Below, in pieces: positions 4,693-21,869 of a DNA stretch of 22,441 nucleotides (its first letter is position 1; each line of letters begins with the position of its first letter). This DNA is from a virus. The position numbers and the translations under genes are program-made. The stretch is from the IMG/VR virus record IMGVR_UViG_3300005582_002640, positions 1 through 22,441 of that record; one strand, written 5' to 3'. The notes under the pieces are model-generated. The model had not been told where the DNA came from. It did no database searches and saw only the letters and a program-made list of their open reading frames with translations.

Positions 4693-6009
4693 TCAGCGGT
4701 CTTTCATAAATTGAGCCAGAATTTTTTCAATGTAGTCAATTTGAGGGTCTGTAATTCTTGGACTGGTTCCCAAGAAGAAAGTGTTGATAGTAGCAGTAGT
4801 TGCGTTAGGGAAATCTTTAATCGGATCTCCTGTTGACAGATGTGCATAACCAGGCTGCAACAAAATGTTTCCCCCGAAGTAATTTCTGGTCTGAATCTTG
4901 TTGTCCTCAAAGAACATTGTCAATTCTGTTCTCTTGAAACCAGCATCTGCCTTGACTGTGATCGGAAAGGCAAACCAAGAAGGATCGGCCCCATCTGTTG
5001 CTTTCGGAAGAATGAACTTACTTTCGTAATTAGAGAAAATTTTAAGCAGCCTTCGGTAGTTATACTTTCGGGTTTCAATGATTTTGTCCAACTTTTCTAG
5101 TTGAACAAGACCCATTGCAGCCTGTAGGTCCAATGGCTTTAAATTGTATCCTATTTCTTCATACACATACTTGTGATCAAAGATTTCATCTGGCAGAGAA
5201 GGTAACCAATTACTAAATCTCTTCTTGCACATACCATTTTTCAAGCAAGAAGCCGCCTTTCCCGAACAATAGCAGCCACGACCCCACTCCCGCAGACTCT
5301 TGAGAACCATTTCTTGTTCTCTAGTCTTGGTGGCTATAAAACCGCCTTCCCCCATCGTTATGTGGTGGGCTGGATAGAACGAACAAGTAGACATTTCTCC
5401 AAACGAACCTAGTGCTTGTCCCTTGTATGTGCTTCCAAGAGCATCACAACAATCTTCTACTAGAATAAGGTTATACCGATGAACAATATCCATTACAGCA
5501 TCCATGTTTGGAGGATTTCCCAAAACATGGGCAAACACCAGTGCGCTTGCTCCATTTTTTGCTGCTGCTTCTAGTTGTTCAATGTTTAGATTCAGAGTAT
5601 CCAATTCAATGTCAATGAATACTGGCGTGAATCCGTTTTGAATAATAGGATTGATTGTTGTTGGAAATCCGGCAACAGGAGTAATTATCTTCGATCCCTT
5701 CGGCAGATCCCACAATTTCTTGGAACCAAGAGCAGTAATCATGAGAAGATTTGCACTAGAGCCACTATTGGTCAAACATCCATGTTCTTTTCCAAGACGC
5801 TTAGGAAACTTGTTCTCAAAACGAATCCCATTCTCTCCGAGAGCAAGCCAGCCGCCAAGCAAACAATCTATTACCGCAATATATTCTTTTTCGTCCAAAA
5901 CAGAGCCAGAGTACTGAACCCAATCAGTACCAGCAACCCAATTCTCGGATTTTGATTTTACGATCTCGGTGACGAGATCATTAATCATCTTCTGCTTGTC
6001 CTGCTGCAT
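4693..6009 (-). CDS. rfbH: RfbH/DdhC-type CDP-4-keto-6-deoxyglucose 3-dehydrase (E1)
   Basis: This 438-residue protein of the DegT/DnrJ fold has almost the same length as bacterial RfbH (about 437). In YPAHHITMGEGG the first His (residue 215) occupies the place of the PLP-binding lysine. This replacement marks the PMP-dependent 3-dehydrases, which remove the C3 hydroxyl on the way to 3,6-dideoxyhexoses. The iron-sulfur ligands are also present: Cys188, then 57 residues, Cys246-x-Cys248, and Cys261. The last spacing is 12 residues instead of the usual 7, so the cluster loop has a 5-residue insertion. The C-terminal part has EIGYNLKPLDLQAAMGL, typical of the family. The ATG at 6009 follows the upstream stop by five bases. 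The partner reductase (RfbI/E3) and a CDP-glucose 4,6-dehydratase are not in the window, so a host or distant gene must supply them. Confidence 0.92.
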   Translation of the reverse strand: MQQDKQKMINDLVTEIVKSKSENWVAGTDWVQYSGSVLDEKEYIAVIDCLLGGWLALGENGIRFENKFPKRLGKEHGCLTNSGSSANLLMITALGSKKLWDLPKGSKIITPVAGFPTTINPIIQNGFTPVFIDIELDTLNLNIEQLEAAAKNGASALVFAHVLGNPPNMDAVMDIVHRYNLILVEDCCDALGSTYKGQALGSFGEMSTCSFYPAHHITMGEGGFIATKTREQEMVLKSLREWGRGCYCSGKAASCLKNGMCKKRFSNWLPSLPDEIFDHKYVYEEIGYNLKPLDLQAAMGLVQLEKLDKIIETRKYNYRRLLKIFSNYESKFILPKATDGADPSWFAFPITVKADAGFKRTELTMFFEDNKIQTRNYFGGNILLQPGYAHLSTGDPIKDFPNATTATINTFFLGTSPRITDPQIDYIEKILAQFMKDR

Positions 6010-6014
6010 GATAT

Positions 6015-6914
6015 TCAATTCCACCACTTGTTTATTCCCTTCTTATATTCAGGTTCCCATCCAGTTGTTAATTTAATCTTGGTAGTGTCGAGTGAGTATC
6101 TTACATCCTGACCCCAACGATTAGGAACAAACTGTATACCTTCTTCTTTAGTTTTACCAAAGGAACTAAGAAGATCAATGGCAACATCAAGGTTTGTCAT
6201 GTGATTATCTGCACCAATATTAAATGTGGAATTTTTAACCTTCGATTTTATCAATGAATATATTGCTTTTACATTATCTGTTACATAAATCCAATCCCGA
6301 ACATACGAACCATCCCCATGTAAAGGAATTTTCTTCCCATTATTAATACAATCGAGGCTTTTTGGAATTAGTTTTTCATAATATTGTCTTGGTCCATAGT
6401 TGTTAGAACTCCGTGTAATAATATAGTCTATCCCATATGTTCTGTGGTAACTAAAGACAAGCATCTCAGCGGATGCTTTTGATGCGGAGTAAGGATTACT
6501 TGGCATTAGTCTATCGTTTTCTTTGAAAGACGAACCCGCAGTGTCTCCATAGACTTCATCTGTACTTATATGAAAAAACACAGGTCTTTCGTGTTCAGAC
6601 TTACCTCTGATTATCTCAAGTAGATTGTGTACTCCTAAGATATTACTCTTGATGAACGGAACAGTATCATTTATAGAGTTATCAACATGAGTCTCCGCAG
6701 CAAAATTAACAACATAATCGCACGACGGTAAATGCTTGACTTCACAAATATCTTGTTTGATGTGCTTATAATTCGGATTGTTATCAAATGGGAGGTTTTG
6801 ATTGGCACAATAAGTTACACAGTCATAATCAATGATTGTGTCTCCATTTTTGAGAGCCAACTCAACAAAGTGACTTCCAATAAATCCTCTACCACCAGTT
6901 ACTACTAGTCTCAT
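6015..6914 (-). CDS. rmlB: NDP-glucose 4,6-dehydratase, RmlB-like SDR
   Basis: This 299-residue SDR has GGRGFIGS at 7-14, AAETHVDNSI near 72-81 and STDEVYGD at 117-124 with the dehydratase signature T118-D119-E120. YSASK at 142-146 gives Y142 and K146, and RSSNNYGPRQYYEKLIPK is close to canonical RmlB. It should oxidise C4 of a dTDP- (or CDP-) glucose, eliminate water across C5-C6 and leave a 4-keto-6-deoxy sugar, the substrate type required by the RfbH-like enzyme downstream. It is about 40-50 residues shorter than usual RmlB, mainly in loops. The ATG at 6914 is preferred because AAAGG lies 6 bases upstream; a TTG at 6920 overlaps the previous stop. Nucleotide specificity cannot be decided by eye. 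Confidence 0.9.
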   Translation of the reverse strand: MRLVVTGGRGFIGSHFVELALKNGDTIIDYDCVTYCANQNLPFDNNPNYKHIKQDICEVKHLPSCDYVVNFAAETHVDNSINDTVPFIKSNILGVHNLLEIIRGKSEHERPVFFHISTDEVYGDTAGSSFKENDRLMPSNPYSASKASAEMLVFSYHRTYGIDYIITRSSNNYGPRQYYEKLIPKSLDCINNGKKIPLHGDGSYVRDWIYVTDNVKAIYSLIKSKVKNSTFNIGADNHMTNLDVAIDLLSSFGKTKEEGIQFVPNRWGQDVRYSLDTTKIKLTTGWEPEYKKGINKWWN

Positions 6915-6916
6915 GA

Positions 6917-7768
6917 TCAACCTTTCATCGAATCTAAAATTATATCAACCGCTTCGAAGGTATTTATCGACGGCTTATATCCATACGAAAGCAACTTATC
7001 ATTGTTTAAACAAACATTTCTGACTTGAACAACCTTGTGAAAGTGGGGAACATCGATGTTTGTAATATTAGATGTAGAACCCATTTTGCTATGTGCATAA
7101 TGAATAATCTCTCCGATTTTTCTAGGTTCCCTATTGCTAATATTGATCACTTCATCCATAGGCGATTGATCTATACATGTTTTGATTGCCCTACAGGCAT
7201 CACCAACATACATGAAATCACGAATATTGGTTCCCTTGTCATAAAGTTGAACTGAACTACCGACCTTCATAAGGTTCATCATATGCTGTAGGGCATTCTT
7301 TTTTAGTGATACGCCTTTATCCCCCTCGCCAATGATGTTAGTCATGCGGAGAATTCTGTATTTCATACCGTAGGTTTTGCAATAACAGATTAACATCTGT
7401 TCCGCTGCTCTCTTCGTGATTGAATAGAAACCTCTAGGATCGCAATAATCACTTTCTTTTGTATCCAAAGAGCAATTCATCCCGTATACAAACCAAGAAC
7501 TGACGAAATTAAATACCGTATCCTCACGGTAATTAAGTCTACAAGACTCAAGTACATCGACCATTTTGGTCAAGTTAGTTTGTATATCTAAAGTGGGCTT
7601 GTCGAAAATGTTATAATTGTGTGTCGTACTTATGAAATACAACACATCTTTACTTTTAGGTTTGTTCTCGTTTCGGTCAATAGATACACAACGATCTTTG
7701 TTCATCTCCACAAAACGGCTACCAATAAACCCTGTGGAACCATATACAGAAATTTCATTTTGAGTCAT
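6917..7768 (-). CDS. Extended SDR, sugar-nucleotide reductase or epimerase
   Basis: This 283-residue protein has a slightly diverged NAD(P)-binding GSTGFIGS at 10-17, a VSSWFVYG segment near 89-96 in place of the usual Ser-Ser-x-x-x-Tyr-Gly, and YSITK at 115-119 with the catalytic Tyr and Lys. NIRDFMYVGDACRAI follows as the substrate-domain signature. It belongs to the NAD-dependent epimerase/dehydratase family but lacks the T-D-E triad of dehydratases, so a 4-ketoreductase or epimerase is more likely. It lies immediately before the RmlB-like and RfbH-like genes, where a paratose, abequose or tyvelose type reductase or epimerase would fit. That assignment is contextual only. Confidence 0.8.
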   Translation of the reverse strand: MTQNEISVYGSTGFIGSRFVEMNKDRCVSIDRNENKPKSKDVLYFISTTHNYNIFDKPTLDIQTNLTKMVDVLESCRLNYREDTVFNFVSSWFVYGMNCSLDTKESDYCDPRGFYSITKRAAEQMLICYCKTYGMKYRILRMTNIIGEGDKGVSLKKNALQHMMNLMKVGSSVQLYDKGTNIRDFMYVGDACRAIKTCIDQSPMDEVINISNREPRKIGEIIHYAHSKMGSTSNITNIDVPHFHKVVQVRNVCLNNDKLLSYGYKPSINTFEAVDIILDSMKG

Positions 7769-7777
7769 ATTTGTGTC

Positions 7778-8575
7778 TTATAGTTTGTCAATGTTGTTTC
7801 TAAACCAACGCTCACCAGGATACATATCGGGAGTATCCATACCATTTCGTAATCTCTGTGGTGAATTGCCGTAAGCACCGCATGCATTATTCGAACCATC
7901 GGGATCTAGTTCCATCTTCTGCCCAAATTGAAACTCACGATTGTATGCGCTATACTTAGTTCCGCTATGTGTTTTGGTATTTTTTCCCGGTTGACAGTTA
8001 TTGTCGGTGTTGAAAACAAGACTGTTAGTAGTATAATTTCTCATGTGGCGATTGAATTTATTTTGGAACCTCCACATCCAGTCTCCATCTTCTTCACCAA
8101 AACCTATAAGCCTCTCGTCAAAATATCCAACACGATCTTTGTCTGTCATGTCTTTTCTGTACATGCAAAAGTGACCCCAATGACTGTTGATTCTAAACGA
8201 CTCGTCACCAAGACTCCTATTTTCAACAAGCATAGATTCAAAATCATCGAAAAACTGATCACGAAAAATAACATCATCACTAAGAATCAAGGTGTAATCA
8301 TTACTAGTATAATTAACAGATGTGTTCCACATGAAAGAACAACCACGCATGAAAGGGGACATCACCAAAAATGTATTTGAGAAGTTAGATGCATACTGCA
8401 TCATACCACGGCGATAGTTCTCGCTGAATGGTTCTTTATTTTGACCATTGACGAAAATGACTTTCTCCACATTCGGTCTCAATCTATTAATATTGGCGAG
8501 AAGAACCTTGAAATATGAATCAAATCTATAGACATAAGTCTGAACTGTGATGCTGTAAGATGGAATGTTAGTCAT
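7778..8575 (-). CDS. GT-A type glycosyltransferase, paralogue of 12199-13059
   Basis: This 265-residue soluble protein begins with SYSITVQTYVYRF, a beta strand typical of GT2-like folds. It has LILSDDVIF at 97-104, whose D100-D101 is a likely metal and nucleotide-sugar site, and GFGEEDGDWMWR near 155-166, which resembles the acceptor and base region of GT2 enzymes. It ends in PDMYPGERWFRNNID. All these blocks recur in the protein at 12199-13059, so the two are clear paralogues. It probably transfers a sugar from an activated donor to a growing glycan in the cytosol; donor and acceptor are unknown. It starts at the ATG at 8575, nine bases after the GDPD-like gene. Confidence 0.8.
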   Translation of the reverse strand: MTNIPSYSITVQTYVYRFDSYFKVLLANINRLRPNVEKVIFVNGQNKEPFSENYRRGMMQYASNFSNTFLVMSPFMRGCSFMWNTSVNYTSNDYTLILSDDVIFRDQFFDDFESMLVENRSLGDESFRINSHWGHFCMYRKDMTDKDRVGYFDERLIGFGEEDGDWMWRFQNKFNRHMRNYTTNSLVFNTDNNCQPGKNTKTHSGTKYSAYNREFQFGQKMELDPDGSNNACGAYGNSPQRLRNGMDTPDMYPGERWFRNNIDKL

Positions 8576-8584
8576 TGTTTATTC

Positions 8585-9049
8585 TCAATTAACGAATTTG
8601 TCTAGGCAGTCATAAATGAAATCAGAGCATACAGCATAAAACCCTGTATGTCCATAAGATTCTATGCACTTCTTAGATAAAAGTGGTATGATGCACTTAT
8701 CTGTTGGAGGATTAGTTAAATCGTGGGACCAAATATATCGATTGCTTGTTAATGTATAGTCATCGGATCTGTGACAAAAGTATTTGCAATCAGGAACATT
8801 ATCCATTAACCACAGAAGAGCATTATACTCCTTAACATGGATCCAGAGAAATTCTTTCCTCGCATTGATCCAATCTGATGAAATTGGATAATCTGGTGTA
8901 TCATGACCAAGATGTGGGATACCATCTCGCATTCTTAAGTCAATCTCGCAATCAAATGAATTATTTAAGCACTTGTCTATGTAATTTGGGGAGTTTTCAA
9001 GTTCAGGATAAACGCCATCCAGATTTCCTCTATGCGATATGAATATCAT
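8585..9049 (-). CDS. Minimal glycerophosphodiester phosphodiesterase-like protein
   Basis: This 154-residue protein starts at the ATG at 9049, overlapping the stop of the nucleotidyltransferase gene as ATGA; a longer upstream reading would run over that gene. It keeps the active-site residues of the GDPD TIM-barrel family: H6-R7, E18-N19, E35-I-D37 and H49. After residue 80 it is much shorter than the usual 230-250 residues, with WIHVKEYNALLWL perhaps replacing the E-x-K strand. Typical members hydrolyse glycerophosphodiesters to glycerol-3-phosphate and an alcohol, using a divalent metal. Here it may trim a phosphodiester-linked glycan part or release glycerol phosphate for it. No signal peptide is seen, so it acts in the cytosol. 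The fold family is well supported; the reaction is inferred. Confidence 0.8.
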   Translation of the reverse strand: MIFISHRGNLDGVYPELENSPNYIDKCLNNSFDCEIDLRMRDGIPHLGHDTPDYPISSDWINARKEFLWIHVKEYNALLWLMDNVPDCKYFCHRSDDYTLTSNRYIWSHDLTNPPTDKCIIPLLSKKCIESYGHTGFYAVCSDFIYDCLDKFVN

Positions 9050-9876
9050 TTGGACACCTCTTTGTGGTACTCTGTCCAATACTCAAAGCAAGCGGCAGCA
9101 TGTAAAGGGTGTTTTGCTTGCCCCCCCTTTAAGATTTTCACCCACGCCTCAAAGTTCTCGACTTCTTCGGGAGTCCCAAACACAGTCACATAAGGGGTAT
9201 CGTAGTACCCTACCTTTAGTCCATCTCTTACCAACAAGTTATAAACTAAAGTAACATAGTACTCACCGTTATAGTTAATATCTTCTTTCATTGCCTGATC
9301 GAAATACTTCTTAATGTATTTCCCTTTGCGGAAGTAGTAGACACCAGTTGATGCATGTTCATCTAGTGGATTATTAGTATAGCAGGCTTTCTCCTTGATC
9401 TCCTCAAGGATGTTGTTTTCTCCCTTCACAAAAGCCATCTTCGTGTGAGCCAGCGTGTGTGGGTGAAAGCCCGTGTGTGTAAGTACACAACCATCGAACT
9501 TTCCTTCCTTCATCTTCTTCTTGAAGTCCTTGCGATCCCAAAGGTGAGGATTATCGCAATACGAGATGATCACCTCTTCATTGTCATCGATTAGATCGTA
9601 GACAGTTTTTACGGTGAAGACCGGACCCAATTTATGCTGTGGCATGGATACAATCTTGGCACTTGGAACAAGTTTCTTTAGTATTTTCCTCATGTTAGTT
9701 GTTTTCAAATGCACATCATTGCAGATGAAAACAAACTCATCATTCTTAACATCAAACATGTCCAAGATGTATTCAATTATCATTTTGCCATTGACTTTGA
9801 TCAATGGTTTTGGATCGATATAACCCTTCTCTACGAAACGGTTTCCCGTCCCTGCCATCGGAACAATGATTTTCAT
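9046..9876 (-). CDS. Sugar-1-phosphate nucleotidyltransferase
   Basis: This 276-residue protein has the N-terminal signature of the NTP-transferase family: VPMAGTGNRF at 5-14, then DPKPLIKVNGK at 21-31. ISYCDNPHLWD near 104-114 contributes D108 as the metal ligand. It should condense a sugar (or polyol) phosphate with an NTP to give the NDP derivative. Both the nucleotide and the sugar are undetermined; glucose-1-phosphate is possible but the sequence is not a close RmlA or RfbF copy. It overlaps the kinase-aldolase gene upstream and the GDPD-like gene downstream by ATGA, so the three products are probably made in a fixed ratio and may work on one compound. A run of seven G lies 24-25 codons before the stop. 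Confidence 0.88.
   Translation of the reverse strand: MKIIVPMAGTGNRFVEKGYIDPKPLIKVNGKMIIEYILDMFDVKNDEFVFICNDVHLKTTNMRKILKKLVPSAKIVSMPQHKLGPVFTVKTVYDLIDDNEEVIISYCDNPHLWDRKDFKKKMKEGKFDGCVLTHTGFHPHTLAHTKMAFVKGENNILEEIKEKACYTNNPLDEHASTGVYYFRKGKYIKKYFDQAMKEDINYNGEYYVTLVYNLLVRDGLKVGYYDTPYVTVFGTPEEVENFEAWVKILKGGQAKHPLHAAACFEYWTEYHKEVSK
9121..9127 (-). repeat. G7 homopolymer tract in nucleotidyltransferase gene
   Basis: Seven consecutive G bases (coding strand) occur at the Lys-Gly-Gly-Gln codons of the nucleotidyltransferase. They are the longest G/C run I noticed in an otherwise AT-rich region. A slip here would alter only the last 25 or so residues and break the ATGA coupling to the next gene. 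Confidence 0.6.
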
Positions 9877-11282
9877 ACTAAAGTCTTCCTATGCTTTTCA
9901 GATGTCATGTTATTAAGGTGCCTGATCTGATTTCTATTCAAGAACTTAGGAGTCAAGCAAGCAGCCGTCATCAACCTTAGTATGTAGTTGTTCGTAGATG
10001 ACATCTCTACGGGAAACACAGCGGCATCAGGAAATAACGGAAGATTTATTTTAGTATCATCCTCACTAACATCAACAAATGATTCATAGTGATTTCCTAA
10101 CCACATCTTACATCTGTTGTTGATTTCATTAGTAATAGAAAGTGCTTCCTTAGCGTTTACTGCGCTTACTATTAGTCCGTGGTTCTCAAGAAACAGAATA
10201 CCTTTACTATCACCAATTCGATTCATAAGTTCTCTACCAGGAACTTGATACTCAATGAATTTATATGATAGGTCTTTAAATAATCCATTGATAATTGGTT
10301 TCCCTTCTCTGCTACAGAGAAGTACATTCAGATGAATCGGATGTGTGTGAATTATTACTCTTTCCTTGATAGAGTCATGAAACCCCATTTCCATAGAAGG
10401 TCTTCCAAATCCAGACTTCTTTGATAGAGTTACATAGTTATTGTACTCATCATCCGTATCAAACGATGGAACAGATCCATTACTATGATGGCAGACACAG
10501 AATCCGTGGTAGAGGTTGATGTCTCCCATCATCGAACCTGATGCTTTAATAATCAATCCACTCTTAGACTTTATTGAAACATTGCCGCCCCTTCCTTGCA
10601 CTAGCGACGGGTCTAAAGATAAAGACTTACAGATACCCATAAATTCGTTAAGTGAGTCGTAGAAATCTTTCACTTTACTCATCAATTCCGAACCCACATC
10701 AGTTATATTCACATATTCTAAACAAACAGACCCCATCCTGTCTTTAGTGAATTTAACGATGATGTCCGCATTTTTTCTCTGTGGAGTTATATACAATTCT
10801 TCGTCATGTATCCTTCTTTTCATCGTGTCTATGACTTGATCCTCAGTGTATCCCCTCTTTTTGGTATCTCTTTTGATTTTCCACTCAGTCTTCAATTCAG
10901 TATCCGTGTCTACAAATATTTTGACATCAGCGAGATCTGATGTGGGCTTATGGTATAAAGCATGTAAGCCCTCATATAAAACACATTGTTTAGGTTCAAT
11001 TTTTACAGGAGGATCAAACTTACCGGTATCGTGATTGTACTGCACACGAAGCACACTTTCACCATTCATAAGAGAAACTATGTGTTCGTGTCCGACATGG
11101 AGCACATTAGATTCAGGATTTAAGTGGGTTTTGGTGTTCCAGGCGCAATTATCTCTCTCCCATTTATGAAGATCATCGCCACTCAAACAAACTACTTTGT
11201 CAACTCCAATAACACTCTCTATGAGTTTCGACAATGTTGTTTTACCCACACCAGAACTGCCTGACACACAAATTAGTTTCAT
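9873..11282 (-). CDS. Fusion of uridine kinase/PRK-like P-loop kinase and class II aldolase
   Basis: This 469-residue protein has two recognisable domains. Residues 1-190 form a P-loop kinase with Walker A GSSGVGKT at 8-15, LYEGLHALY at 102-110 and VDTDTELKTEWKIKRDTKKRG near 124-144, the pattern of phosphoribulokinase and uridine kinase. Residues about 205-420 form a class II aldolase/adducin domain: GNVSIK at 233-238, KASGSMMG at 247-253, E298 in SMEMGFH, HTHP at 312-315 and ENHGL at 366-370. H312, H314 and H368 are the expected zinc ligands and E298 the catalytic acid. Such aldolases act on sugar-1-phosphates or related phosphates with dihydroxyacetone phosphate or glycolaldehyde phosphate chemistry. 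The fusion could phosphorylate a sugar and then cleave or build it. It is coupled downstream to a sugar nucleotidyltransferase. Domains are clear; the substrate is unknown. Confidence 0.88.
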   Translation of the reverse strand: MKLICVSGSSGVGKTTLSKLIESVIGVDKVVCLSGDDLHKWERDNCAWNTKTHLNPESNVLHVGHEHIVSLMNGESVLRVQYNHDTGKFDPPVKIEPKQCVLYEGLHALYHKPTSDLADVKIFVDTDTELKTEWKIKRDTKKRGYTEDQVIDTMKRRIHDEELYITPQRKNADIIVKFTKDRMGSVCLEYVNITDVGSELMSKVKDFYDSLNEFMGICKSLSLDPSLVQGRGGNVSIKSKSGLIIKASGSMMGDINLYHGFCVCHHSNGSVPSFDTDDEYNNYVTLSKKSGFGRPSMEMGFHDSIKERVIIHTHPIHLNVLLCSREGKPIINGLFKDLSYKFIEYQVPGRELMNRIGDSKGILFLENHGLIVSAVNAKEALSITNEINNRCKMWLGNHYESFVDVSEDDTKINLPLFPDAAVFPVEMSSTNNYILRLMTAACLTPKFLNRNQIRHLNNMTSEKHRKTLV

Positions 11283-12178
11283 TAGTCCATCATCCCTGAT
11301 GTTTTAAGTAAACGAAGAAGAGCAGCCTCATATTTTTCAAAAGGAAGCCCACAATGTATCTCAACGAGCATCTTTTCCTTCAATCTATTTGGACATCTTT
11401 TATCCCCGTCGTGTATAAAATTTTCCCCATCCCAAACCCTAGGATAGTATGTTGGATTATATGCGTTTTGATATTTTGCTTCAAGTCTTTGGAATTGTGA
11501 AATATATTCTTTGACGGAGAACCCCATAAATTGTTTAGGTGCAAAATAATTCCATAAAGTTTCGGATGTGTAATGTTCCTCTGCCATCCAATGATCACCA
11601 CGGAGTTTACGAAGTTCAGAATCACTCTCTACTCTCTCATATTTTCGTGATGCTACAATGAATTTAATGAAGGATTCAAATGTTTCATGATGTTTGAAGA
11701 ATATTTCTTTGATTAAACTGCCTTTAGCACAGTGATAATGTCCAGGTAGGTCATAACCACCATTACCCATTTTTAATGATCCCTTTTTAAAATATTCATG
11801 AGGATTTAGACCCATCTCTCTACCTATAATTGAATAGTTGAGGTGTAAATACGAATCGTCGGGTACACTTTCCAATTTCGTGAAATACTCTGTTTGTAAT
11901 GGAATTAAATCGATGTCACCGATCAACCAAGTCGTATCTGGCTCTAGGGTTGGAAACCAAAACCTCGAAAACTGAAGTTGTAATACTTCAGGTATACTCG
12001 GATCAGGAGTTATCTCAATTACATCTCCATACTCTTCAGACATACCACACTTATTCTTATCTCCATACAGATAACAAACGGGATGAATTCCCAATTTGGT
12101 TTTCCACACTTTCGATTGAATATTCCAAAAAGGACTAAACTTTTCTGAACACGGGAATGCTATTTTGTCTATTTTCAT
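11282..12178 (-). CDS. Putative GT-A glycosyltransferase with DID motif
   Basis: This 298-residue protein has WLIGDIDLIPL near 84-94. Its D88-I-D90 is the D-x-D metal and nucleotide-sugar site of GT-A folds, preceded by a strand-rich N-terminal part as in GT8 and related families. GHYHCAKGS in the middle resembles acceptor-side loops of phage-encoded transferases that I know only as unassigned. There is no membrane segment. The ATG at 12178 is preferred, with GGAG about 9 bases upstream; a TTG at 12202 overlapping the previous stop would add eight residues. The stop TAA shares one base with the ATG of the kinase-aldolase gene. The family assignment is tentative because only the D-x-D block is diagnostic. 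Confidence 0.65.
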   Translation of the reverse strand: MKIDKIAFPCSEKFSPFWNIQSKVWKTKLGIHPVCYLYGDKNKCGMSEEYGDVIEITPDPSIPEVLQLQFSRFWFPTLEPDTTWLIGDIDLIPLQTEYFTKLESVPDDSYLHLNYSIIGREMGLNPHEYFKKGSLKMGNGGYDLPGHYHCAKGSLIKEIFFKHHETFESFIKFIVASRKYERVESDSELRKLRGDHWMAEEHYTSETLWNYFAPKQFMGFSVKEYISQFQRLEAKYQNAYNPTYYPRVWDGENFIHDGDKRCPNRLKEKMLVEIHCGLPFEKYEAALLRLLKTSGMMD

Positions 12179-12198
12179 GTGTATTATTCTCCATTTAA

Positions 12199-13059
12199 TC
12201 AAACATCATTTATGTGTTTTCTGTACCAACTCTCCGCAGGATAAAAATCTGGATTTGTAGCACCAATTCTCATTCTAACCGGATGTGATTTATGGTTTGT
12301 GTACGGACCCATAGGCGTATAACCACTATGTGCGGGACGGTTCGGATCAATGTCCGATGGATCTTTTACTTCTTCATACTTATTATTCCAGAGCCAATTG
12401 ATGTTAAATAAAGAGTACTTGTTCCAACCAGTTACCTTTTCGACGTTCATGTTTTTAGAATTTGTTGGAGAATTATCACATAAATGTACAATATTATTGA
12501 GATAAACTACAGGCAACTCTTTCTTCTTGATAGTTTCATACCTCCACCACCAGTCACCATCTTCTTCACCAAATCCTAGTAGTCTTTCATCGAAGTATCC
12601 AACATCGAACAAATCTTGTCTGAAAACTGAGAAATGTGCAAATCCCCATGTATTAATTCTAAATGAACAATCCCCATTTTTTCTCCTGTCGGAAAGTGCC
12701 ATCTCATATTCCTCAAAAAATCCATCTTTAATAGACACATCATCTCCAACATTTAAGATGTAATCACTATTAGTGAAGTTGATAGCGGTGTTCCACATGA
12801 ACGAACATCCTCTAACAATTGGGGACATAATAACATATGTTCTTGGACACAGAGAACAGAACTTCATTATCTCTCTTCGATACTCTTGATCGAAATCTTC
12901 TTTGTGTTGACCATTTACAAAAATGATTTTGTCAACATCTGGTCGCATCCGAGAGATTGAGTTCATTAAGTGTTTGAAATACTTCTCATACCTGTGAACA
13001 TGAGTTGCAATTACGATGCTGTATTTGGGAGTTGTTGTGTAATTATTGAGTTCTGACAT
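12199..13059 (-). CDS. GT-A type glycosyltransferase, paralogue of 7778-8575
   Basis: This 286-residue protein shares many blocks with the product of 7778-8575: KIIFVNGQHKE, MSPIVRGCSFMWNTAINFTN, GYFDERLLGFGEEDGDWWWR and PDFYPAESWYRKHI. The DxD-like site is NVGDDVSIKDG, corresponding to the ILSDDVIFRD of the paralogue. It should be a cytosolic GT2-like transferase. The differences are concentrated after the EEDGDW block, consistent with a different acceptor or donor. The ATG at 13059 follows the upstream stop by 24 bases; a TTG at 13083 is possible. Its stop lies close to the start of the DID-type transferase. Confidence 0.8.
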   Translation of the reverse strand: MSELNNYTTTPKYSIVIATHVHRYEKYFKHLMNSISRMRPDVDKIIFVNGQHKEDFDQEYRREIMKFCSLCPRTYVIMSPIVRGCSFMWNTAINFTNSDYILNVGDDVSIKDGFFEEYEMALSDRRKNGDCSFRINTWGFAHFSVFRQDLFDVGYFDERLLGFGEEDGDWWWRYETIKKKELPVVYLNNIVHLCDNSPTNSKNMNVEKVTGWNKYSLFNINWLWNNKYEEVKDPSDIDPNRPAHSGYTPMGPYTNHKSHPVRMRIGATNPDFYPAESWYRKHINDV

Positions 13060-15688: not shown

Positions 15689-16909
15689 TTACGCTCCCAT
15701 GATTTTGAATTCAGGACACGGTACAATAAACTTACCGCCACCTTTTATGTAATCACTTTCACGAACCATAAACTCATTAATGAAGTGCCAAGGAAGAACC
15801 AGCAGATAATCCGGTTTTTGCTTTCTCATCTCATCTTCAGAGTATATGGGTATGTTAGTCCCTACGGTTTTAAGACCAAATTTGTAGATGCTTCTTTCTG
15901 CTATACCATCGATCATTGTGTGATCAAGTCCAAAGTATTGCAGTAAAGTATTACCCTTAGTTGATGCTCCATATCCCCATATTCGTTTACCTTTGGCCTT
16001 CTCTTGCTTGATAAAATCGGTGGTTTTCTGTTTAAGGTCTACAATACGGGAAAAAAATTCATCCCATGTTTTTTTACTGTTTAGTTCCAAAGTCTTTTCA
16101 TACTCCAGTAAAGAGTGAACTCTGAAACTACAGACATCACGATATGGCTGAGTCCCAAACTTAGTCTTGTCTGATGTTTTCTTCATGGCGTAGACACGAA
16201 AAGATCCTCCATTCGTATCGTTGAGTTGAACATCTACAATATCAAACCCACACCTATCGAACATACTCTTCAAATTAAAAAGTGAGTAATAGTAGATGTG
16301 TTCATGGCAGATGTTGTCGAAGGCCAATTGCTTCAACATCAATGGGGTATAAGACAACTGTAGAACCCAAAGACCGTCATCATCTAGAACATCATTCACA
16401 TCACGAATAAATTCCTCCGGATTCTCTAAGTCGTAGAACATAGCGATTGTAGTGATTACCTTCGCTTTCATGAACCCAAACTTGGAAGATTTAAACTTTT
16501 TCGCCGTGAAGTAGTCTTGTATGATCAAGTTTGAATGCTTTTCGGACTCATTCTTGAAAGAATCATCCACAGGATCAATACCAACACGAATCATTTGGTT
16601 GGGAACATAACTCAATAAAGTACCATCGTTGCAAGCAATATCGATCCAAAGATCATTCTCTTTGAAATTAACTACATCTAGAATAGATTCAACGATGTGT
16701 TGAAGTTCTGTACGCATAGTTTGATTTATACCTGAGCGATACCAGTATTTCCCATACATAGTATCAAGTGGAGCAGTAGTATCTAAACGAACCAGTCCAC
16801 TGTTTTCATCTAACATCATTTTCATTTCGACCTTACCTCCACGGGGCATATTCCCATCTTGGATAAAGTCAGACACATACAAATCGCCCAAAGTAAATAG
16901 TTCTTTCAT
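15689..16909 (-). CDS. SAM-dependent sugar C-methyltransferase (NovU/TylC3-like), zinc domain lost
   Basis: This 406-residue protein has the three-part layout of deoxysugar C-methyltransferases: YWYRSGINQTMR near 55-66, SAM motif I DIACNDG at 90-96, and the HEHIYYYS active-site block. The C-terminal domain has GYGASTKGN and LPWHFINEFM, then GGGKFIVPCPE. These enzymes methylate C3 of 4-keto-6-deoxy or 3,6-dideoxy NDP sugars, which fits an island with RmlB- and RfbH-type enzymes. Unusually, the N-terminal zinc domain, normally with C-x2-C and further cysteines, is absent: the protein starts at FTLGDLYVSDF and the first cysteine is Cys93. The ATG at 16909 has GGGAA about 8 bases upstream. Confidence 0.9.
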   Translation of the reverse strand: MKELFTLGDLYVSDFIQDGNMPRGGKVEMKMMLDENSGLVRLDTTAPLDTMYGKYWYRSGINQTMRTELQHIVESILDVVNFKENDLWIDIACNDGTLLSYVPNQMIRVGIDPVDDSFKNESEKHSNLIIQDYFTAKKFKSSKFGFMKAKVITTIAMFYDLENPEEFIRDVNDVLDDDGLWVLQLSYTPLMLKQLAFDNICHEHIYYYSLFNLKSMFDRCGFDIVDVQLNDTNGGSFRVYAMKKTSDKTKFGTQPYRDVCSFRVHSLLEYEKTLELNSKKTWDEFFSRIVDLKQKTTDFIKQEKAKGKRIWGYGASTKGNTLLQYFGLDHTMIDGIAERSIYKFGLKTVGTNIPIYSEDEMRKQKPDYLLVLPWHFINEFMVRESDYIKGGGKFIVPCPEFKIMGA

Positions 16910-20926: not shown

Positions 20927-21673
20927 TCAATTAGTTGAACATTCAAATGTCTCAAATGAAGCACCTGCCATCTTAACGGCAGACAGCACGGTATCTAGTT
21001 CTTCCTTTGTGACAAATCCCAATTTATCTGCATGTGTTCCATTATTTTTCTGCGACTGTGGGTGAACATCATGGAAAACTAAGTTTATGCCTAGACCCAT
21101 CTTCAATTTGGTGTCGATTTCATCAATAACATTGACCATATCTCCACGACGAATTCTGTGTTCGTAGGTCTCGCTATTTCTTCCGCCTTCTCTTTCCCGT
21201 AGCATATCAGCATGTCGCATCAATAAAAATCTATCATTGTATAGAGTGTTTTGTCCTGGTCTAAGCCTGATATAACAGAACATATCAGATACTGCATCAT
21301 AAAGAGAAGAATTGAAACTTGAATAGGGGAAAGCGAAATGTGTTGGCGGAAGTCCAACCGCTGCCATTGACTCCATAGCAGGAATTACCTCTTCATCTAT
21401 GTAATTATCCGTTTCACCGTACTCTAGGGCATCCTTATGAGAAACCCCATGACACCCTATAACATGACCATCTTTCTTTAATTCAAAAATCAAATCAATG
21501 TCTGAATTACTCAATTGATCGAATGAATCGATGTAAAATACGGCTTTAGCATCATGTTTTCTGAGAATGTCTCTAGCATTGTAATGCCAATTAGATATAC
21601 AATGATCATCAAAACACAGATGAGCATGTGGTAGTTTTACCTTATGAGATGTGAAAGTCCCGAAACGATCCAT
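20927..21673 (-). CDS. Polysaccharide deacetylase-like (NodB/CE4) protein
   Basis: This 248-residue protein starts at the ATG at 21673, four bases after the stop of the small membrane-protein gene. An in-frame ATG at 21763 would overlap that gene by 86 bases and add a sequence unlike the family. It carries CE4/NodB motifs in order: CFDDH with D22-D23 (catalytic base and metal ligand), H75-G-V-S-H79 (metal ligands), FAFPYSSF at 113-120 corresponding to the R-x-P-Y motif, and VFHDVHP at 199-205 with H201. Members remove N- or O-acetyl groups from GlcNAc-type sugars using a divalent metal. There is no signal peptide, so the substrate is probably cytosolic, such as a nucleotide or lipid-linked sugar. 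Lying just before uvsX and the glycan island, it may modify the same glycan. Confidence 0.82.
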   Translation of the reverse strand: MDRFGTFTSHKVKLPHAHLCFDDHCISNWHYNARDILRKHDAKAVFYIDSFDQLSNSDIDLIFELKKDGHVIGCHGVSHKDALEYGETDNYIDEEVIPAMESMAAVGLPPTHFAFPYSSFNSSLYDAVSDMFCYIRLRPGQNTLYNDRFLLMRHADMLREREGGRNSETYEHRIRRGDMVNVIDEIDTKLKMGLGINLVFHDVHPQSQKNNGTHADKLGFVTKEELDTVLSAVKMAGASFETFECSTN

Positions 21674-21677
21674 GAAA

Positions 21678-21869
21678 CTATTTAGCGAACTTATCTTGCC
21701 TCTTCTTTTTGGCAACTGATCGCTTTCTGGTGTTTTTAGTATTCTTGTTTGGTTTTTCAACATACAACCATTCTAAGAAACTAGACCAAAGAATACCAAG
21801 TCCACCTAAAATGACCAGAATAGTAATAAGATTCATGAGCGACTGTGCATGATTGATTTCGTTTGTCAT
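21678..21869 (-). CDS. Small single-pass membrane protein, function unknown
   Basis: This 63-residue protein has one strongly hydrophobic helix at about residues 11-34 (LMNLITILVILGGLGILW) followed by a very basic tail rich in Lys and Arg, including the run KKKRQDK. The positive-inside rule places the tail in the cytoplasm. Its ATG overlaps the gp43 stop codon as ATGA, so it is translationally coupled to the DNA polymerase. No lysis signature (dual-start holin motif, lipobox or coiled-coil spanin) is present. I do not recognise the family. A membrane tether with a nucleic-acid-binding tail next to the polymerase is conceivable but purely inferred. Confidence 0.75.
   Translation of the reverse strand: MTNEINHAQSLMNLITILVILGGLGILWSSFLEWLYVEKPNKNTKNTRKRSVAKKKRQDKFAK

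Follow-up and report, generated by a model that had tools for sequence, protein, structure and literature searches.

Several described systems resemble parts of a viral locus in which a P-loop kinase is fused to a class II aldolase. The locus lies on IMG/VR virus record IMGVR_UViG_3300005582_002640 (1 to 22,441), and this whole stretch of 22,441 bases is referred to here as the window. In the haloarchaeal non-carboxylating pentose bisphosphate pathway, a HAD protein and a FucA homologue of one operon were found biochemically to convert ribulose 1,5-bisphosphate (RuBP) to ribulose 1-phosphate (Ru1P) and then to dihydroxyacetone phosphate (DHAP) and glycolaldehyde (PMC9700705). In bacterial relatives of the locus, a class II aldolase likewise has a HAD from the RuBP 5-phosphatase family as its neighbour, and the same two steps are predicted for them. 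In haloarchaea, nucleosides are the source of RuBP, by way of ribose 1,5-bisphosphate, and the pathway then degrades it, whereas here a phosphoribulokinase-type kinase would supply it and the genes stand beside nucleotidyltransferase, GDPD-like and glycosyltransferase genes.

Calvin-cycle phosphoribulokinase (9qkn, 9qko and 9qkp) shares with the kinase half its fold and its Walker A, DDxH..R, YNHxTG and RDxxxRG motifs. It differs from the kinase studied here, which is joined to an aldolase in phages or to a GT-C membrane domain in bacteria, lacks the phosphoribulokinase C-terminal part and scores below the NCBIfam cut-off. RhaD and FucA aldolases and the bifunctional aldolase/short-chain dehydrogenases (PRK08324, TIGR02632) share the zinc site, catalytic Glu, phosphate-binding loops and fold of the aldolase half. 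In the bifunctional enzymes, however, the partner is a dehydrogenase rather than a kinase, and the aldolase half scores far under every equivalog cut-off, including those for FucA, RhaD and Ru1P aldolase.

Two further systems handle surface glycans. GtrA/GtrB/GT-C three-component glycan modification systems resemble the bacterial module, though not the window, in possessing GtrA, a GtrB-like GT2 and a GT-C-like domain; the module differs in bringing its own sugar-building enzymes and in joining its GT-C domain to a kinase. The lipopolysaccharide-type clusters of Synechococcus phages S-SM2 and Bellamy have adjacent genes for a tandem nucleotidyltransferase, an aldolase, a small HAD and a GDPD-like protein, but no kinase, and their aldolase is a separate gene. 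An earlier note on this DNA knew of no named system with the kinase-aldolase arrangement, and none was found in the literature searched, which describes neither module nor fusion (subscription papers were mostly outside its reach). The locus apparently belongs to a widespread surface-sugar gene module that is undescribed in that literature. Each type of reaction is known in itself; what appears new is how they are combined, along with the fusion and the pattern in which the kinase is lost.

On balance, the fusion appears somewhat likely to be the entry enzyme of a ribulose-based branch in a glycan-building module. The fused architecture, the intact active sites, the conserved gene set and the loss of the kinase in Calvin-cycle settings are observed.

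The kinase-aldolase fusion and its coupled genes

The fusion and the two genes coupled to it are as follows.

9873..11282, minus strand: fused kinase-aldolase, 469 amino acids, ATG start
10746..11276, minus strand: kinase half, residues 3-179, PF00485; phosphoribulokinase-type P-loop kinase
10098..10640, minus strand: aldolase half, residues 215-395 (Pfam match), PF00596
9046..9876, minus strand: nucleotidyltransferase, 276 amino acids, PF12804 (4.2e-06)
8585..9049, minus strand: GDPD-fold phosphodiesterase-like protein, named from predicted fold, invariant residues and junction

The PRK domain (E 2e-39, 135.9 bits, cut-off 22) and the Aldolase_II domain (E 4.7e-16, 59.7 bits, cut-off 22.2) lie in the same frame. 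The earlier note had described a kinase joined to an aldolase with Walker A, zinc histidines and catalytic Glu intact, and both Pfam and alignment confirm a real fusion of this kind. An assembly artefact is ruled out as its source, as 64 of 81 viral loci are fused. The structure modelling which that note proposed gives a model confident across both halves (AlphaFold2, 42-row alignment; predicted local distance difference test, pLDDT, 93; predicted template modelling score 0.90), and each half has counterparts of its type among solved structures. In structure comparison, the kinase half aligns with the cyanobacterial phosphoribulokinase 9qkp (Z 25.5, root-mean-square deviation 1.7 Å, 197 aligned) and the aldolase half with the class II aldolase 3m4r (Z 20.1, 2.4 Å, 187 aligned). 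A viral structure library gave matches of a single domain type only and no named fusion.

The kinase half probably phosphorylates ribulose 5-phosphate, judging from its motifs and model scores. It carries Walker A GSSGVGKT, GDDLHKWER, THLNP, YNHDTG and RDTKKRG. The substrate-side DDxH..R, YNHxTG and RDxxxRG motifs occupy identical positions in cyanobacterial phosphoribulokinase, and alignment with Phormidesmis phosphoribulokinase and Escherichia coli Udk finds the phosphoribulokinase-type DDxHxWxR and YNHxTG motifs in the kinase half and not in Udk. The NCBIfam phosphoribulokinase model NF005655 scores 198.8 bits against 86.3 for udk, whose equivalog cut-off of 220.3 is not reached, and the phosphoribulokinase model matches all 42 representative fusions. 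By a strict regular-expression check, all eight motifs are present in 36 of these 42; the other six, one of them truncated, differ at one or two motifs. In the kinase tree, the Udk rows form a separate clade (100/100); one row of the alignment (L033), which the motif search trimmed in the wrong place, is misaligned in part. A uridine or nucleoside kinase identity is rejected by the model scores and this separate clade, so that of the earlier label "uridine kinase/phosphoribulokinase-like" the second part stands and the first does not. That a nucleoside or uridine kinase of salvage or housekeeping function was joined to an aldolase by chance, with no tie to the glycan genes, is scarcely credible. 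Phosphoribulokinase and Udk do share one Pfam family, and uridine-kinase-like proteins occur in many viruses; the Udk clade nevertheless stands apart, and the fused loci regularly keep the GDPD-like gene (63 of 64) and the 4-nucleotide coupling to the nucleotidyltransferase (51 of 54 pairs).

The aldolase half, aligned to E. coli FucA and AraD, keeps the GN.S and SG phosphate loops. Glu298 corresponds to FucA Glu73, and His312, His314 and His368 correspond to FucA His92, His94 and His155. Beyond this generic active site, PD at 418-419 and ExxR at 462-465 are family-specific C-terminal motifs. The invariant aldolase residues of phage and bacterial members coincide, including the PD and ExxR pair.

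The two downstream genes are coupled to the fusion by ATGA overlaps, as the earlier note had claimed and as both junctions read in the sequence. The kinase-aldolase/nucleotidyltransferase junction is gtATGA and the nucleotidyltransferase/GDPD junction is aaATGA, each a 4-nucleotide overlap. The first of these overlaps is identical in 51 of 54 viral gene pairs. For the GDPD-like open reading frame, ATG 9049 is most likely the start rather than TTG 9079. The bacterial enzymes are tandem duplications, and the phage nucleotidyltransferase shares 37-40% identity with their first half.

The GDPD-like protein is predicted to adopt a compact GDPD fold (AlphaFold2 pLDDT 94.4) and aligns with Pyrococcus GDPD 7e2a (Z 12.2, 3.2 Å, 154 aligned). 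The family invariants are H16, R17, E45, D47, H59 and K83, and the His-Arg/Glu-Asp/His catalytic set is present. Pfam GDPD gave no match to the window protein at E<=0.1; six of 43 relatives matched weakly, the best at 0.0018. The PDB, searched with a profile of the bacterial GDPD-like proteins, yielded no credible relative. Bacterial and phage profiles align with 94.6% probability over 67 columns. A common origin is therefore likely from the profiles but not firm, because the alignment spans the first halves only.

The gene set in viruses and bacteria

Viral loci were collected by a nucleotidyltransferase-alignment scan, from which the best 80 of 204 matches and the window make 81. Locus genes were called with hidden Markov models of 1-7 seed sequences each. 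Kinase and aldolase occur in one frame in 64 loci and in two frames in one; the rest comprise one kinase without aldolase, seven aldolases without kinase (two cut by the contig end) and eight loci with neither. These counts include near-identical contigs, and the 61 full-length fusions reduce to 42 representatives at <93% identity. In L134, the locus with two frames, a frameshift or an error of sequencing is the probable cause, because it is near-identical to a fused locus, L139 (4 mismatches and one indel over 1410 bp). The aldolase of L158 is likewise split across two frames. The halves are also found apart, with the same aldolase family, in bacteria and cyanophages, so that the separation, which the earlier note would have counted against its reading had it held in all relatives, holds for those relatives and not for most of the viral loci.

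An initial scan of viruses recovered two copies that are nearly identical and two relatives at 73% identity, in which the same three genes lie in a different setting. As a query, the fusion found no match in a scan of genome contigs. By tblastn it matched 8 of 50,697 phage records, in the kinase half only, and among 72,556 plasmids no single place covered 80% of it. An E. coli plasmid match in the latter search led to the bacterial module.

The GDPD-like gene is present in 63 of the 64 fused viral loci. A small HAD-type gene of ~100 amino acids accompanies 40 of the 64 and matches PNKP and EcbF/BcbF phosphatases weakly; the group to which the window belongs is without it. In 13 of 14 fused records without a HAD beside the fusion it was found nowhere in the record, most records being fragments. 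This search covered 17 records, four of which gave a match, three of them already known HAD carriers. Where the small HAD-type protein lies between the nucleotidyltransferase and the GDPD-like gene (L105 and others), its counterpart is called "phosphoheptose isomerase" in cyanophage annotation, a label contradicted by its DxDET motif and its weak Pfam and NCBIfam matches. Seven fused-type loci (L120, L129, L130, L143, L157, L161 and L164) contain an additional, free-standing nucleotidyltransferase with a GT61-type gene after it, the same order as the tandem nucleotidyltransferase and GT61 of cyanophages.

The bacterial module was recognized with a nucleotidyltransferase query, which found plasmid clusters in E. 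coli, Hirschia and Azospirillum with separate but adjacent kinase, aldolase, nucleotidyltransferase and GDPD-like genes. The E. coli example, the IncR plasmid NZ_CP145712.1 of a stool isolate (L006, 6022-14984), holds a complete module close to an IS26 copy. A scan of bacterial genomes gave at least 576 matches, of which 80 were taken. Together, 52 bacterial loci were analysed (48 of the 80, L066 and three plasmids), several of them cut by contig ends. A strong nucleotidyltransferase is present in 51 of the 52 by construction, because this gene was the bait. Among these 51, the membrane domain occurs in 39, a kinase domain above 100 bits in 37, the HAD in 40, the aldolase in 43, the GtrB-like transferase in 41 and the GDPD-like gene in 46. 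Membrane domain, HAD, aldolase and GDPD occur jointly in 36, and the kinase-aldolase fusion in none. The bacterial kinase is instead the C-terminal domain of a protein with a GT-C-like membrane part (GT87 in 10 of 30, ALG3 in 4 of 30). Going by record titles, carriers include proteobacteria, Cyanobacteria, Gastranaerophilales, Bacteroidota, Campylobacterales, Clostridiales, Acidobacteria, Cloacimonadota and others.

In 33 of 34 bacterial loci the module HAD matches NF053830, a haloarchaeal RuBP 5-phosphatase model. In each of 27 module genomes this HAD alone matches the model at E<=1e-25, against one of 14 in the control; the match was assigned to the module gene by script in 24 genomes and by hand in three. 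Of 400 Cyanobiaceae genomes, 14 were found by means of the nucleotidyltransferase; the HAD was hit in 12, all of them among these 14, and in none of the remaining 386. The HAD directly precedes the aldolase in 18 of 47 bacterial loci, an arrangement not seen in the window.

Kinase loss and the proposed route

The module kinases of Cyanobiaceae, here marine picocyanobacteria that act as Calvin-cycle hosts, are eroded to varying degree in 13 of 13 cases, and the membrane domain, HAD, aldolase, nucleotidyltransferase and GDPD are kept. The eroded set comprises L032, L050 and 11 of 13 further Cyanobiaceae regions (L187-L195, L197 and L198); of the two remaining regions, one has no detectable kinase gene and the other no module. 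All 37 other bacterial module kinases are intact. Of 39 module kinases counted, 32 have all four strict patterns; five each miss one, read as a conservative change and scored intact; and the two exceptions are Prochlorococcus. The eroded kinases would amount to a natural loss of phosphoribulokinase-like activity.

RuBisCO is present in five of six Cyanobiaceae carriers tested; no match was obtained in the sixth, the genome of L032, which may be incomplete. Among 34 other carriers, all with an apparently intact kinase, RuBisCO matches of the same strength occur in one (Phormidesmis), weaker matches in two and none in 31. The aldolase occurs without a kinase in cyanophages S-SM2 and Bellamy and in five viral records like them; the cyanophage versions keep the aldolase, small HAD, nucleotidyltransferase and GDPD. 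The photosystem genes psbA/psbD were found in two of five aldolase-only viral records and in none of 38 fused records, and RuBisCO was absent from all 32 viral records searched. The kinase is thus eroded or absent in two separate settings with RuBP made by host phosphoribulokinase, that is, where the host supplies RuBP. Its loss in both is a prediction of the ribulose reading.

Under that reading, each reaction is assigned by homology. The kinase half would phosphorylate D-ribulose 5-phosphate at C1, giving RuBP. In bacteria, the HAD related to RuBP 5-phosphatase would strip the C5 phosphate to give Ru1P, a step for which many phages may use the small, unrelated HAD adjoining the fusion. The aldolase half, as a putative zinc DHAP-type class II aldolase, would reversibly cleave Ru1P to DHAP and glycolaldehyde or, where no phosphatase is present, RuBP to DHAP and glycolaldehyde phosphate; it might also re-form another pentulose phosphate. 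Alternatively, the route may stop at Ru1P, which would feed a nucleotide-activated glycan unit. The coupled nucleotidyltransferase would activate a phosphorylated product, and the GDPD-fold enzyme may trim or rearrange a phosphodiester along the way. The activated unit would pass in bacteria through the GtrB-like transferase and GtrA to the GT-C domain joined to the kinase, and in phages to phage glycosyltransferases. The earlier view that both fused steps act on one substrate may not hold literally, because a phosphatase probably acts between them in most relatives. Fuculose, rhamnulose and heptulose, then suggested for assay, are not first choices, because the bacterial HAD partner indicates RuBP and Ru1P.

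Several observations weigh against a ribulose-based route. Phormidesmis (L029) has both RuBisCO and an intact module kinase, the erosion in Cyanobiaceae may be a single inherited event, and many cyanophages carry CP12, an inhibitor of phosphoribulokinase. The kinase half matches model positions 10-188 of 326, without the C-terminal part of true phosphoribulokinases, and its 198.8 bits fall below the curated PRK07429 cut-off of 236. The module HAD scores 137-195 bits in the 27 genomes, below the NF053830 cut-off of 330. RhaD-type aldolase/dehydrogenase models fit the aldolase half better than the Ru1P aldolase model (14 of 42 fusions at 1e-5). No small HAD lies beside the fusion in the window and 23 other fused loci of the 64.

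Such points leave room for the same module acting on a different sugar, such as a tetrulose, xylulose, heptulose or a phosphate of these, so that the resemblance to RuBP enzymes would be at family level only. The kinase would then use another ketose or ketose phosphate, and the aldolase would make or cleave its ketose 1-phosphate. HAD phosphatases are often promiscuous, the module HAD is below its equivalog cut-off, the aldolase half is closer to RhaD-type models, and the module sits among nucleotide-sugar genes. This account is nevertheless rather unlikely: it fails to predict the single, module-restricted RuBP 5-phosphatase match or the kinase loss in Calvin-cycle settings.

The aldolase half could also be an epimerase or dehydratase of AraD or MtnB type, producing a stereoisomer or a deoxy-dicarbonyl without cleavage. 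AraD and MtnB have the same fold and zinc site, hits to MtnB models at 1e-5 number 9 among 42 fusions and 11 among 31 bacterial aldolases, and a biosynthetic cluster would arguably profit more from epimerization than from cleavage. MtnB scores lie below the aldolase scores, however, and an AraD-type epimerase is disfavoured by alignment: the catalytic acid is Glu, as in FucA, instead of the Asp of AraD, whose other residues are not conserved. An epimerase or dehydratase is unlikely.

Phage context and possible biological meaning

The window carries T4-like phage markers, namely a gp43-like DNA polymerase, UvsX and a DnaB-like helicase. These replication genes flank about 20 minus-strand genes of nucleotide-sugar and glycosyltransferase type. 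Neighbours of the core genes are as follows.

11282..12202, minus strand: 306-amino-acid upstream neighbour of the kinase-aldolase, no Pfam match; context rather than core module
4693..8575, minus strand: glycosyltransferase-like open reading frame, two 4,6-dehydratase/epimerase-like enzymes and an RfbH-like aminotransferase-fold 3-dehydratase; context

The stop of the 306-amino-acid protein and the start of the kinase-aldolase overlap by 1 nucleotide, and its family is present in 38 of 83 clustered viral loci. The RfbH-like protein (4693-6027) scores 479.6 bits against an NCBIfam cut-off of 423, a 3,6-dideoxysugar-type dehydratase in a phage. A C-methyltransferase (Methyltransf_14, 15689-16909) and a polysaccharide deacetylase (20927-21763) in the same cluster suggest more unusual sugar modification.

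The finding seems to reach beyond the fusion to a widespread glycan module that would start from RuBP chemistry. In a bolder and still doubtful version of the ribulose reading, bacteria of many phyla and independently streamlined phages tap RuBP for an undescribed nucleotide-activated ketopentose (ribulose, xylulose or an epimer) or a two-carbon glycolaldehyde unit. A true glycosyl donor would arise when the GDPD-fold enzyme, together with the second nucleotidyltransferase, shifts the phosphate from C1 to the anomeric C2, perhaps through a cyclic phosphate. With the RuBP pool already filled by the Calvin cycle, marine picocyanobacteria and their phages would have dispensed with the kinase, and intermediates of carbon fixation would pass directly into surface glycans.

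If true, RuBP, known as the RuBisCO substrate and from an archaeal salvage route, would also be a precursor of cell-surface glycans in heterotrophic bacteria, in Prochlorococcus and Synechococcus and in T4-like phages. A conserved set of genes, whose present labels are uridine kinase, HAD hydrolase, aldolase and phospholipase, would gain a concrete role. Because Calvin-cycle hosts have lost the kinase naturally, the predicted substrate can be tested directly, and for this the compact phage fusion offers a convenient enzyme.

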